Origin: Fomitopsis serialis
Taxonomy: Eukaryota; Basidiomycota; Agaricomycetes; Polyporales; Fomitopsidaceae
Direction of reading: 5' to 3'
Length of the DNA stretch: 64,000 nucleotides
Assembly (NCBI RefSeq): GCF_022376445.1
Contig: NW_025954983.1
Span: 248,001-312,000, forward strand
Shown here: piece by piece, positions 22,757 through 32,333 of the stretch
How the letters are laid out: each line of letters opens with the position of its first letter
Position numbering within the stretch: position 1 is the first letter of the stretch
Made by a program: the position numbers and the translations under genes
The notes under the pieces: generated by a model
The model's input: only the letters and a program-made list of their open reading frames with translations
Told to the model about the DNA's origin: nothing
Database searches by the model: none

Positions 22757-23954
22757 CATCTGCTGGACAGTGAGAGTCATCTCATCACGAGAATGGCAAC
22801 TGCCCCTCTTGCCACTAGCGCAGATCAGCAATGTACGGTCCGTAATACGCCCATGCCAACACTGCCGTGACAGGAATAAGTCTGTAGCTTCCTGTCTTCC
22901 ACTGCTTTCTCCCGACTCATTTGCTGGCAGTTCCGCTGTCTCACGCATGGATTTTTGCTCTGACCAGTGGCGGCCTGTTCATTTCATGTTGCCTGGCCGT
23001 GGGCCGCCGCTGGTGTCTTCGGCCAGTAGTCCGAGCCGCTTTGTACAGGATAAAACTCTATGCGGGGAAACTGGTTGTCCCGCAGAGCCGGGCATACTTT
23101 CCCCACGCGGGTACCCGGGAACTGAGGTCAATGTCGAACACGGCAGCCCAATTCTTGTCTACCTGCAGTACACCACTACACGTAAGTGCAACTGTACTAC
23201 GGACTGCATTGGATGACGGCAAGTGATGGCCCTTGCACTTCCTAAAGCAGTATGTGATTATATGAAGAGGTGATCATAGCGAAGGGAGATGGGCGCCCCT
23301 CCCGGACAGATACCATTCTCGATCCATGATCACTCTCGCGACGGCGTTGCTAGTGTGAACCTTGTCTGCATCAGACGAATACCCCGAAAGCTTTCAACGA
23401 GTCGTTTCTTTTTCGTTTTGAATCCCTTTATTGTCCGCGAGGGCCGGGCCTTATGTAGACAAGGCTCGAACCTGGAATTGACGGATCAATGGGCCTGGGA
23501 AGATTGACAATTGATGGCGGGCCGCCGCGGCGTGCCCTATGTAGACGACCAGCGTCCCTCAGCCCCGCCTGTTCACAGTCTACGTCCTAGGAGAGATCAG
23601 CCAACCTCTAGGATCTGCTAGCCAACGTCGGACGGAATGATTGCCACAGCACACTAGCATGTAACCCGTTTCCCATCTCAAACGCCGCTCTGTTGCCGCT
23701 CTGAGAACTGGATTTTTCTGAGTTCCACCGGCTTGCAATGAGCGCAGTGTGAACGGGCTCAATGGCGCTTAGTAGCGGGTTATGACATGTTGGCAACCTG
23801 CTACGCAGCTAGGCTGTGCATTACTCCTGTTTGCGAGCTATTATGTAAAGCACGCCGATCACCTTGTCTACCACTCCTCCACTGACTGACGCAATCCCCT
23901 CGAGGTACATTCGGGTTCTGCGAAGACGAAGCATCTGAGATCTCAACCTGCACG
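22757..23954. other. Intergenic region between divergent genes
   Basis: About 1.2 kb. An open frame of 158 codons at 22740-23216 has no recognisable domain and overlaps the promoter sites, so it is not called. Nothing else recognised. Confidence 0.55.
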
Positions 23955-25410
23955 ATGTCTCGAGCGACAACTGAGTCGAAATCCGTCGTCAGGGAAGCAG
24001 GTGAGCTGTTTCGTCCTCTCGCCTCGTCTCTTGTGGGCCAACGGTAGCTCCACAGGCATGCTAGAACGATGGCATGTCGCCCGTCAAAACCTGGGCGTGC
24101 TCGGTGCTGTCGTCATCTCCGGACGATACACACGTGCCGATGGGAGCATCCTCGACAAGGCCCTTCTCTACGCAGCTCTGGAGAAGGTCATCCACAAGCA
24201 CGGAGCCTTGAACGTATGCGTAGCAGGTGAAGCGACGCCCACACCTGCTTTCGTTCGCTTGGATCGCATCGACTTGGACGAGGTCGTCACTTTCGTTGAC
24301 GGAGACTTGCGCGAGGTCCTTGAGGCCGAAGTTGCCAAGGGATTCGACATGACTCGGCCTCTCTGGCGAATCCTGGTGGTGCCAGATGGCACTGTTAACT
24401 TCAGCTTCCACCATGTGATCGGGGACGGACAGAGCGGGATCGCCTTCCACCGGACACTGCTCGCCGCTCTGAACGAGATGGGCGAAACCTCCCCTCCTCA
24501 CTCGGCTGTCGTATCAACTTCGGCTAAAGTCACACTTGTGCCACCTATCGAACAGGTCGCGAACCTTCATGTCTCGCCTTTCAGGCTCATCCGCGAAATC
24601 ATCAAGATGCTTGTCCCCGCTTCCTGGACCGCGGCCTATTGGGCGTGGACCGGCTATCCCTGTCCATCAGAACGTAAACTCACGGCCAACCTACGACTCC
24701 TGTACCACAAGCCGGAGGCAGCGCATCGCATTTTGCAAGTCTGCAGGGCTCATCAGACGTCGCTGACGGCTCTCATGCACACTTTGGCAACGCTCATCAT
24801 CTCCGAGTACCTCGCCGAAGACCCGTCAAATACCGGCAGGTACACTTCCATATCGACATCTATACCCGTCTCCCTGCGCGCTTTCGCCAAAGCACCCCCG
24901 GGCGTGATGTGCAACTATGTCTCGACCCACTTCTCATTCCCTACTCTCATAAAGCGGACGCCATCTACCGATAGATCGTGGCTCAGAGAGTTCCCCTGGG
25001 ACAGCACGAGTGAGCTATCGAAAACACTGCGCAAGCAGCAAACACACTCCGCCGAGAGCTTAGGCATGGTCAAGTTCATCGGGGACTTCGAAGCATACCA
25101 CATGAACAAGCTCGGGAAGAAGCGCGACTACACCTTTGAGATCTCCAACGTCGGGCGGTTCCCGGGTGGTGCTGAGACTCCAGGGGGGGATACGGGATCG
25201 TCGGCGTGGACCCTCGACGGTGTCTATTTCTCGCAGTCGAACCCATCCTCGGGAGGCGCGATTCACGTGAACGTCGCCGGCGATCCAGCCGGTGGGATCG
25301 GAATCTCAGTGAGCTGGGCCGAGGGCGCGATAGACGATACGTTCGGGGAAGCCTTCTTCGAGGCATTCAAGGAGGGACTCGAGGAGGTCGTTCATCATGA
25401 CATTGCATAG
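23955..25410 (+). CDS. Alcohol O-acetyltransferase-like protein (AATase / condensation-domain superfamily)
   Basis: Exons 23955-24000 and 24056-25410; 466 residues. The first exon gives MSRATTESKSVVREA, then splices in phase to GMLERWHVARQNLGVL, matching the N-terminus of fungal Atf-like proteins. The catalytic HxxxDG motif is FSFHHVIGDGQSG near residues 130-142. The C-terminal half carries GVMCNYVSTHFSF and YTFEISNVGRFPGG, comparable to the NVG-type motif of the superfamily. Family members transfer acetyl from acetyl-CoA to alcohols or sterols, often making esters in the cytosol or at lipid droplets. The acceptor here is unknown; a terpenoid alcohol is one possibility because of the nearby sesquiterpene synthase, but this is inference from distance only. 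Confidence 0.85.
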
Positions 25411-26248: not shown

Positions 26249-29200
26249 TCATAAATACAGCATCCGGCCAATGTAATGCTTTTGCCAACACGCATGGCGC
26301 GCATTCAACGTGTCCTCCCAGCTACACGTACATCCAACGACCAAGGTCCTCTGCCCACCCTGACAGAGAGCCAGCGTCGACGCCCCGGAAGTTCTCCTTA
26401 AGGGACTTGCGCACAGAAGGCACAGCATGTGAATCGTCCTCGAAAGGAGTCTCGGGGGCGTGGCCAGACCAGCCTCGTCGTACTCCTTGTTGTATGGCGA
26501 GAGGATGCCGAGGCCAGACCCGCCGACGGACGTCGTGTAGGTCCTGAAGCTAGCGTCCTCAAGCGCGGAGACCAAGGCCTGCAGGGCTGTGTCGCTGAAA
26601 TCTGTAGGGCTTCTGTGAGCTTCATTCATTATTGTCAGCGGGATGCGACTTGCCGTCTGGGACAAGCGTGACCGCGCATCCACCACCGCCGGCACCGGTG
26701 AGCTTCGTGCTCAGGCCAAACTGGTTGGCGGCAGTAGTCGACCGAATGAGCTCAAGCGACGGGTGCGATACGCCCAGTGACACCAAGTGGGCATGGTTTT
26801 CATTGATCAATGCCTACAAAGAGGTCACTTAACTGTTTCACCCAAGGGGAGTAAATGTCGTACCGAGAGTGCGTCAAGCAAAGACGATCGAGGTAGCTCA
26901 GGATCAGCCAGAGCTCGACGTGCCTCATCGCTGATAGCTTGGATGGCATCCATGATCTTGTTGATGACCTCGGGCTCCTGATGATAAAAACACCTGTAAG
27001 TCATACCATCTCCGGGCGATTAAGGGCACTCACCTCCGCCTTCTTCAAGGCGACGCCCGCCACAAGCTTCTTCGTATCACGCGGGACCCTCGAGTCAACA
27101 AGCAGGAAGCGCAGCGACTTGAAGCTGACGACAAGCACAGAGAACAAGGGTCAGCACCTCCTTCGCCTCTAATTCATGCACCACTCACCCTTGAATCTGC
27201 TCCATCCCGCTCTTCTTCCCGAACCCAGGACGTGTATACGCCAACGCCCCACCAAACACAGCCACCGAGTTGTCGACGCCGCTTGGGTTCCCGTGCAGCA
27301 CCTTCTCAGCGACGAACGCCCAGCGGTTCACCTCCTCAGCGGTGTCTGGCGGTATAGCACGACGACCCTGATGCGACATGTGCAGGTGTCCCGGGTCGTC
27401 CGCGCCCGCAGGACGCGTGGGAGCGGGGAGGGGCGGGATCTTGATACGCTGGTGCAGGAGCAATAGCGCCGTAGCAATGCACGCAGAGTATGACGCAGAT
27501 GACCCAAGACCCGCGCCGACAGGGAGGGTCGAGCGCACAGCGAAATTGAACGACGGCCTCTCACCGCCATGCGCCATCATCATATACAGGTACAAGAATG
27601 CGATCCCAGCTGCGTGCGCGCCTTTCGGTATGTCTGACGGCGCTGGGAGCGCACGGGCAATGATGGCATCCACGAGCTTCTGATCGAGCAAGTCCGTATG
27701 ATGCTCTCCTGGTAGCACCGGCGTGACGGCGTCCCAGGGGAGGTCGTCCAGGTCCCACTCGTGGACGTAATCGCCGATGTCCGTCATCTGAAGCGACAGC
27801 TTGTTATCGTGTCGGGGCGACGTCACGCCGTAGCAGCGGAGATCCACCGACGCTGCGATCGCCGTCTGCGGGTGGGCATCCGAATCAGTCGGGGCTAGCA
27901 AAGTGCGAGAGTGGCTGACGTACGACTCCATGCACGACCGCGTGCTCGCCGAAAAGGATGACTTTGCCCGGGGCGCTGACGAACCACTCCCGGTCTTCCC
28001 TGGGCCTGTTCGTGAGCGACTGGTTGAAGGCAAGCTTCTCGACGGCGCGGCTGATGGGGTTCGGCAGGCGGACATACTCATCCGCGGCATACGTGATGGC
28101 GCCGGCTCCCATAAGAGCGTGCTGCAAGTCGTCCAAGAGATCCGCAGGGTCCTCGATTCCAACGCATAGGCGAATCAGGTCCTCAGGAAGACCGCGAGCG
28201 GCGCGCGTAGCAGGGTCGATGGACGCATGCCTTGTGACGAGCAGTGAGACCGGGGATTTCGCAATGCACATAACGAAGGGACTCACGACATAACGCAGGG
28301 CATGCTGATGAGGCTGTTGACGCAGCCGAAGCTAACACTGATCCCCCACAGACGAGTAGCACCGACAATGCGCTCGCTGAGCTCCTTGTCACCGGTCTCA
28401 AAGGAGAGCACGGCGCCGTACCCTATTGAATGGCGTGAGTTGGAATGACTAACAGACCGACTGAACACACGCACCATCAGCGATGCGCTCGTGGATTTCC
28501 CTGCCAGGGTGGTTTGGTAGACCAGGATAGTGCGTGACGAAGCCAAGGCGGGAGAGAAGCTGGGCGACGAGCATAGCGGTCGACTGCTGACGGTCCATTC
28601 TGATAGCAAGTGTTTTGACACCCCGCAGGAGCAGGAAGGAGTCGAAGGGCGTAAGAGCATTCCCAACCGAGTTGATCATGAACGCAATTTGCTGTAGTGC
28701 CCATGTAAGTAGACAGAACCAATAGCACGAAGAATGTGTGTACATACCTTGCCGAGGTCGTCTCGGTTGCAGGTAATGATCCCAGCCATGAGATCATGAT
28801 GTCCGCTAAGGTACTTGGTCGCACTGTCATAGACGATGTCCGCACCGTGCTCGAGCGGACGCTGGAGGTACGGGCTCATCATCGTGTTGTCCACCACGAT
28901 GACCGCATCCTGGCACTTCTCTTTCACCATAGCGCTGATCCGCGCAATGTCCACAATCTTCAGTAGTGGGTTCGTAGGTGTCTCCAGCAGTACCATAGCG
29001 ACCTTGGGGGTGAGGTGAGGCACAAGGGTGGTGGGGTCGGTCGTGTCGACATGGTGCACTGTGATGCCCATGTGCGTGCGCAGGTAGGTGAGGAGACGGT
29101 GCGTGCCGCCGTAGATGTCATCTCCGGCGATGAGCTCATCCCCGGGCTTGAGAATGCGGGTGATGATGTCAAGACAGGCCATGCCGGAGGAAACAGCGAA

Positions 29201-29606
29201 AGCATGTTCAGCTGAGGAGATCTTGGCAATGTGGTGTTCTATGGGGGTGCAGTTAGAGGGGTATAATCAGACATCGCACAAGCAGCAGACGCGAGAGAAC
29301 AGCGCAGTTCACACTCTCGCGTACAACACAAGGTGCATTCCACTCACCCAAATGAGTCCTAGTGGGGTTCCCACTCCGGGTATAGTCATACTGTCCACCT
29401 ACACCCTTGAAGGTCGCCGTCTGGTAGATGGGTACACTGGAGCTCCCATGCTGGTCCTTATGGTCCGCGTTGGGGGTCTCCACCGTCGCACACAGCGTCG
29501 AGAATCTATAGGGCTGCCTCGCGCGGGGCAGTGACGGCGACTCCGGCTCAGGCGTCGGGAGGTCCTCAGGCATCCTGAGCTTGTGCGGCGTTCCGTCTGC
29601 AGACAT
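26249..29606 (-). CDS. In-frame fusion: cystathionine beta-lyase-like domain followed by mevalonate kinase
   Basis: Ten exons: 29606-29348, 29238-28748, 28691-28475, 28422-28287, 28230-27924, 27865-27189, 27124-27034, 26977-26864, 26813-26654, 26601-26249; 934 residues as read. Residues 1-407 are a PLP lyase of the Cys/Met metabolism family: DDIYGGTHRLL, the Schiff-base Lys228 in YDSATKYLSGH, and SLISMPCVMSHAS + GIEDPADLLDDLQHAL, closest to cystathionine beta-lyases (cystathionine to homocysteine). Residues 451-934 are mevalonate kinase: SAPGKVILFGEHAVVHG, the GHMP ATP site PVGAGLGSSASYS, and TKLTGAGGGGCAV. Both sides of the junction lie in one uninterrupted exon (28230-27924), joined by about 43 linker residues with no stop. 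The only nearby Met that could start a separate kinase is Met408. One intron (26602-26653) has a GC donor. The last about 60 codons read out of family frame, as if one C is missing at 26454-26458. Confidence 0.85.
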
Positions 29607-29858: not shown

Positions 29859-30522
29859 ATGGCTCCGCGAAGACAACGTGAGTACTCTCTCAGGTCTCGT
29901 GTATCTCATATGCTCAACTACGGTGGCAGACAGCACAACGCCAGACACAGGTAGCTGCGTCGTACCTCGACCCAGAGGTCATCGCAAAGCGCACGAAGCG
30001 CCATCTCGACGAGCTCGAGGTACGTGCCAGAGTGTCTCCTCTTCCTACACCTATTCAACGCTTGTGACTCCAGAAATCAAACTATGCGGAACAGTCTGCC
30101 GGCCTTGAAGATGACGACGACGCCCCGGGCGGCCGCTCCGTGAAGGGCAAGGCGCGCCAATTCGTCATCTCCGACAAACGCGAGTGGCCGGGTATGCCCA
30201 AAAAGAAGTCGAGCCACAACGTCCGCACGGCCGTGCTCTACAAGAAGAATCTGGAGAAGCTCATCGACGAGTCCGTGAGTGTTCATCCAAGCGACCCCCT
30301 AAGCCATGGTTCACGGTGACTCAGGGCATCGCGAATTACCCGCCCGAGGTGCCCACATATCTCAGTGCTGCAGCACCTCCGCCACGGGAACCTCCACGCC
30401 TGATTTGTTCGGTTTGTGGGTATTGGGGCAAGTACAAGTGCAGGAAGTGCGCAATGCCCTACTGTGACCTCAACTGCGAGGGCGTGCACAACGAGACACG
30501 CTGCGAACGCCGGGTCATGTAG
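29859..30522 (+). CDS. VPS71: SWR1 complex subunit Vps71 / ZNHIT1 (zf-HIT protein)
   Basis: Exons 29859-29877, 29934-30019, 30074-30274, 30325-30522; 167 residues. The C-terminal HIT zinc finger is complete: CSVCGYWGKYKC, then RKCAMPYCDLNC and HNETRC, giving the expected Cys/His pairs. The middle has QFVISDKREWPG and KKKSSHNVRTAVLYKKNLEKL, typical of ZNHIT1 proteins. The protein is a subunit of the SWR1 remodeller that loads histone H2A.Z, in the nucleus. The first intron ends at GGCAGACAG rather than the earlier AG because only that acceptor keeps frame. The gene is divergent from the lyase-kinase fusion and convergent with MET2. Confidence 0.92.

Positions 30523-30891: not shown

Positions 30892-32333
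<1,442 letters not shown>

Follow-up and report, generated by a model that had tools for sequence, protein, structure and literature searches.

A cystathionine beta-lyase–mevalonate kinase fusion gene of the published metC-MVK type in Fomitopsis serialis

The 64,000-nucleotide stretch of the Fomitopsis serialis genome analysed here (hereinafter, the window) carries a gene that is almost certainly the described fusion of cystathionine beta-lyase (CBL) and mevalonate kinase (MVK), with one mRNA yielding one polypeptide in which a spacer separates the two enzymes (Table 1). The combination, which the initial annotation regarded as undescribed, was in fact named metC-MVK in 2012, in 12 basidiomycetes (Liu et al., 2012; PMC3342255), and was reported again in 2013 and 2014, once as a unigene of Pleurocybella porrigens (PMC3720577) and once as GME67_g of Lignosus (PMC4129116); all comparisons with published work, here and below, refer to excerpts of the cited papers. 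Given that the metC-MVK fusion occurs widely among mushroom-forming fungi and has been in print since 2012, the copy in the window is ordinary. What is added to the published record is a fusion in a tremellomycete, Vanrija, and an intron just downstream of the junction that is probably shared among relatives.

In the 10-exon model, the nine introns, which total ~550 bases, all keep the reading frame, eight of them with GT-AG and one with GC-AG borders. The end of CBL, the linker and the start of MVK had been placed within one exon, and this is indeed the case, as the 307-nt junction exon reads, in this order, SHASIDP, GIEDPADLL, SAPGKVILFGEH and VVHGV without a stop codon. The flanking introns preserve the phase, as had also been proposed, the exon beginning in phase 2 and ending in phase 0 between two GT-AG introns. 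A Pfam search with the first 862 residues of the window protein matched PF01053 (Cys_Met_Meta_PP) at residues 48–407 with 432 bits, followed by GHMP_kinases_N at 568–609 and GHMP_kinases_C at 760–824, all above the respective cut-offs.

Table 1. Features of the CBL-MVK fusion gene in the window and relatives with transcript-like contigs.
Feature	Position	Strand	Evidence
Whole CBL-MVK fusion gene, 10 exons	26322..29606 (3' limit about 26322)	-	Gene model, Pfam, second haplotype
Exon 1: start codon and CBL N-terminus	29348..29606	-	Gene model
Exon 2: CBL core, PLP-lysine signature SATKYLSGHHD	28748..29238	-	Gene model, signatures, 1ibj alignment
Exon 3: CBL	28475..28691	-	Gene model
Exon 4: CBL, SFGCVNSLISMPCVMS	28287..28422	-	Gene model, 1ibj alignment
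Exon 5 (junction exon): CBL C-terminus, linker, MVK N-terminus with SAPGKVILFGEHAVVHG	27924..28230	-	Gene model, haplotype comparison, linker alignment
Exon 6: MVK core, GLGSSA and EKVLHGNPSGVD	27189..27865	-	Gene model, signatures, rat MVK alignment
Exon 7: MVK	27034..27124	-	Gene model
Exon 8: MVK	26864..26977	-	Gene model
Exon 9: MVK, KLTGAGGGGC; GC-AG intron next	26654..26813	-	Gene model, second haplotype
Exon 10: MVK C-terminus; frame change near 26460 in the window copy	26322..26601	-	Gene model, second haplotype
Relatives with transcript-like contigs: P0015, P0030, P0033, P0057, P0067, P0083, P0092, P0108, P0115			Contig-length arithmetic

The assembly (66.2 Mb in 806 contigs) contains the locus twice: the window lies on contig C146, and contig C191, representing the second haplotype, carries a 97%-identical copy of the stretch with the same fusion gene, which rules out an assembly joint between CBL and MVK. 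The second-haplotype protein is 910 aa long and open to its stop. Splice dinucleotides and exon lengths are the same in the two haplotypes throughout exons 1–9 and in as much of exon 10 as was compared. The copies differ by 26 synonymous and 3 non-synonymous changes in 863 codons, distributed as 9 and 0 in CBL, none in the linker, and 17 and 3 in MVK. Owing to a one-base length difference in the last coding exon, the window copy is read in another frame than the second haplotype for its final ~48 codons, which may stem either from an error in the assembly or from a true difference between the alleles.

The 862-residue window protein matched 956 database proteins, with scoring covering the 7996 candidates that share the most words with the query. 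The two domains co-occur in other proteins too: all of the best 120 of the 956 matches cover both the CBL and the MVK halves, at identities from 94% (Rhodofomes roseus, Polyporales) down to 70%. Half-only queries exclude full-length fusions by length, yet some of the matches listed still cover both halves. With the MVK half, 20 of the 120 proteins match both halves and 100 match one; with the CBL half, 19 of the 119 newly listed proteins match both, and the other 100 are without an MVK match, many of them being named as ascomycetes or relatives of Mortierella. Lentinula detonsa P0142 and its relative P0155 are divergent CBL-MVK-like models, 52–55% identical in the MVK half, and possibly represent a duplicated or poorly modelled copy. 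The Phaffia MVK entry P0223 (315 aa) matches the MVK half only and is uninformative with respect to the fusion because its sequence begins inside that half. Nine of the best 120 matches to the full query reside on contigs that exceed their reading frames by only 146–424 bases, less than the intron total of the window gene; judging from these lengths, the contigs look like spliced transcripts that span the join.

The identity of both halves could be assigned with the help of the closest relative among the matches listed (P0001, which shares 94% identity with the window protein) and of solved structures. The eukaryotic CBL model TIGR01329 exceeds its cut-off on P0001 (532.7 versus 487.5 bits), and the CBL half of this protein aligns with the Arabidopsis CBL 1ibj over residues 45–405, including the PLP signatures. 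The half is similar to stand-alone eukaryotic CBL and carries its PLP signatures, the difference being that the 464-residue Arabidopsis chain stands alone, whereas here CBL is joined to MVK. The best solved relatives of the MVK half are 1kvk and 2r3v, the rat and human MVK, respectively. It aligns to 1kvk over residues 2–402 of 412, and the residues aligned to the catalytic K13, S146, E193 and D204 of the rat enzyme are identical. Compared to rat MVK and, more generally, to the stand-alone MVK chains of 395–396 residues, the fungal half contains an insertion in its central part. This insertion may correspond to the 16-residue one found in the MVK of 7 of 12 species by Liu et al. (PMC3342255).

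Catalytic signature motifs in both halves (PLP lysine, PLP Asp, PLP-phosphate Tyr/Arg and others) are largely kept among the best 120 of the 956 matches. The PLP lysine, the MVK Glu/Asp block and the GAGGGG block are each present in 120/120, and the CBL motif SFGxVxS, the N-terminal lysine loop of MVK and GLGSSA each in 119/120. The PLP Asp signature was found in 113 proteins, the remaining 7 missing the VxDN[TS] pattern, and the PLP-phosphate Tyr/Arg signature in 110, with 10 missing the strict pattern. The second-haplotype protein has all eight signatures. Peroxisomal targeting through a C-terminal signal of the SKL type was considered and rejected, as no such signal was found among the C-terminal tripeptides of 117 relatives, the commonest of which is LYV (82/117).

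When the genome was searched in six frames, without introns, the MVK half gave 12 matches, every one of them on C146 or on its haplotype C191, and a second MVK was not detected. PF00288 matches five further places in the genome, none of which is matched by the MVK half. Further PF01053 genes are present; in the only one that was typed, a fragment on contig C250, gamma-synthase/lyase models score better than the CBL model. The view of the initial annotation that the locus represents a true fusion rather than read-through is therefore well supported by the copy in the second haplotype, the presence of both halves in the 120 listed relatives, the lack of a detectable separate MVK and the preserved signatures, and the fusion appears to be an old one. 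We infer that F. serialis produces a single mRNA and that both activities reside in one protein; the fusion presumably arose once and was inherited vertically.

In these respects, the gene closely resembles the published metC-MVK fusions, with which it shares the order of the domains, CBL followed by MVK, and the lack of another detectable MVK (PMC3342255, PMC4129116, PMC3720577). The length is also similar, 910 aa in the second haplotype versus an average of ~886 aa (PMC3342255) and 918 aa in published fusions, and no essential difference was seen in the excerpts compared. For the basidiomycetes that they analysed, Liu et al. report no MVK homologue and no best CBL match other than the fusion, with Laccaria bicolor as the one exception without the fusion; work on the reason for the fusion and its function was stated to be ongoing (PMC3342255). 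In excerpts of other papers, one lists the MVK of Xanthophyllomyces and leaves the fusion unmentioned (PMC4393869), and another includes MVK in a pathway legend without naming the fusion (PMC11121823). In the excerpts of the open-licence literature, we recognized no functional study or enzyme assay of the fusion. A comparable case is the spermidine synthase-saccharopine reductase chimera (PMC10051792), likewise a basidiomycete fusion across pathways of proteins that are separate in ascomycetes, although the enzymes involved are unrelated to CBL and MVK.

The linker between the two catalytic domains, ~41–44 residues long in the window protein, is more variable than either of them. Across 42 aligned sequences, the most frequent residue has an average share of 0.52 in the linker, compared to 0.86 in CBL and 0.77 in MVK, so that of its earlier description as rich and protein-like, the first term has to be corrected. 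Given this low conservation, the linker is mostly spacer. A better kept patch, ISRAVEKLA, has a majority share of 0.83 in the same alignment; among the best 120 of the 956 matches, 56 contain the patch under a strict pattern and 65 under a looser one. Both the GIEDP-type and the SAPGK-type motifs, which bracket the linker, were found in 117 of these 120 close relatives, at a distance of 57–76 residues. The distance ranges from 55 to 107 residues in eight fused relatives with MVK halves 42–50% identical, and from 39 to 136 residues in the 15 measurable among 17 hand-picked further relatives. The structure model of P0001, built from the 42-sequence alignment that includes P0001 itself, is of modest quality (mean pLDDT 69.8, pTM 0.50), with pLDDT under 50 at residues 425–443.

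Two adjacent genes could have been merged by prediction or misassembly, with MVK having its own promoter and starting at Met408, which sits just ahead of the linker and, as noted initially, is the sole Met in the stretch from GIEDP at residue 392 to SAPGK at residue 453 of the window model. However, the join falls inside one exon that is free of stops, the two haplotypes do not differ in the linker, both halves are matched in every one of the 120 listed relatives, and the join is crossed by the transcript-like contigs, as judged from their lengths, and by the fused P. porrigens unigene (PMC3720577). Furthermore, the GIEDP-to-SAPGK stretch is devoid of Met in 84 of the 117 relatives, the other 33 having at least one, and an internal start at Met408 is hence rejected as a general mechanism. 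Taken with these observations, the merging of two genes appears extremely improbable. A single protein that is later cleaved, or of which one half alone is functional, and which would hence not be bifunctional in the cell, is also unlikely. The variable linker, with its low pLDDT in the modest model of P0001, could conceivably be a protease-sensitive hinge, but both halves retain their catalytic signatures, and neither our genome search nor the excerpt of Liu et al. (PMC3342255) points to another MVK, or, in the latter case, to another best CBL match. Because the signatures are preserved on both sides, the sequences are best read as encoding a bifunctional enzyme whose spacer varies, most likely with the two catalysts working independently on the one chain.

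Under the preferred, bifunctional reading, the gene of this polypore, a close relative of Rhodofomes roseus, would give rise to one mRNA and a polypeptide of ~910 residues. The N-terminal half, a predicted PLP enzyme, would convert cystathionine to homocysteine, and the C-terminal half, a predicted GHMP kinase, would phosphorylate mevalonate with ATP, with a loosely conserved stretch of ~40 residues as the spacer between them. Whether the join has a role of its own is a separate matter. A regulatory link, in which shared dosage or cross-talk between the domains balances methionine and SAM with sterol and terpene output, is conceivable but not likely. Retention of the fusion in all 120 listed relatives and its presence in a tremellomycete are consistent with such a link, as is the use of SAM for sterol C24 methylation, and a homoserine O-acetyltransferase-like gene, encoding another step of the methionine pathway, lies ~1.3 kb upstream. 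Conversely, the varying length of the linker makes a precise domain interface unlikely, and a neutral fusion that is hard to split again would leave the same pattern. The stronger proposition, that the halves sense each other or share dosage, whereby the supply of SAM and methionine and the flux to sterols and terpenes are adjusted jointly, and that the fusion is for this reason widely retained in mushroom-forming fungi, is doubtful. If the fusion is the only MVK, whole-gene deletion or overexpression in mushrooms investigated for their triterpenes would also touch methionine synthesis. In addition, the fusion may be useful for tracing common descent among basidiomycetes.

The tremellomycete fusion is that of Vanrija humicola, in which a 506-residue model extends from CBL into SAPGKVILFGEHAVVHGV and stops within a few residues of it, where the sequence resembles an intron. 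Among the 359 fetched proteins, 13 diverge from the family straight after GEHAVVHGV and 2 more have odd residues there, as read by eye from the list of 359. Since these models depart from the family right at this point, the intron just after exon 5 is probably common to the relatives.

As for the neighbourhood of the fusion gene, the homoserine O-acetyltransferase (MET2-like) frame is located at 30892-31884 on the minus strand; it represents only part of a gene, and its best NCBIfam match is MetX_acetyl with 272 bits, below the cut-off. Between the two methionine-pathway genes, a HIT zinc-finger frame is found on the other strand (30115-30522, plus). Downstream of the fusion, an alcohol acetyltransferase-like frame (PF07247) occupies positions 23890-25410 on the plus strand.
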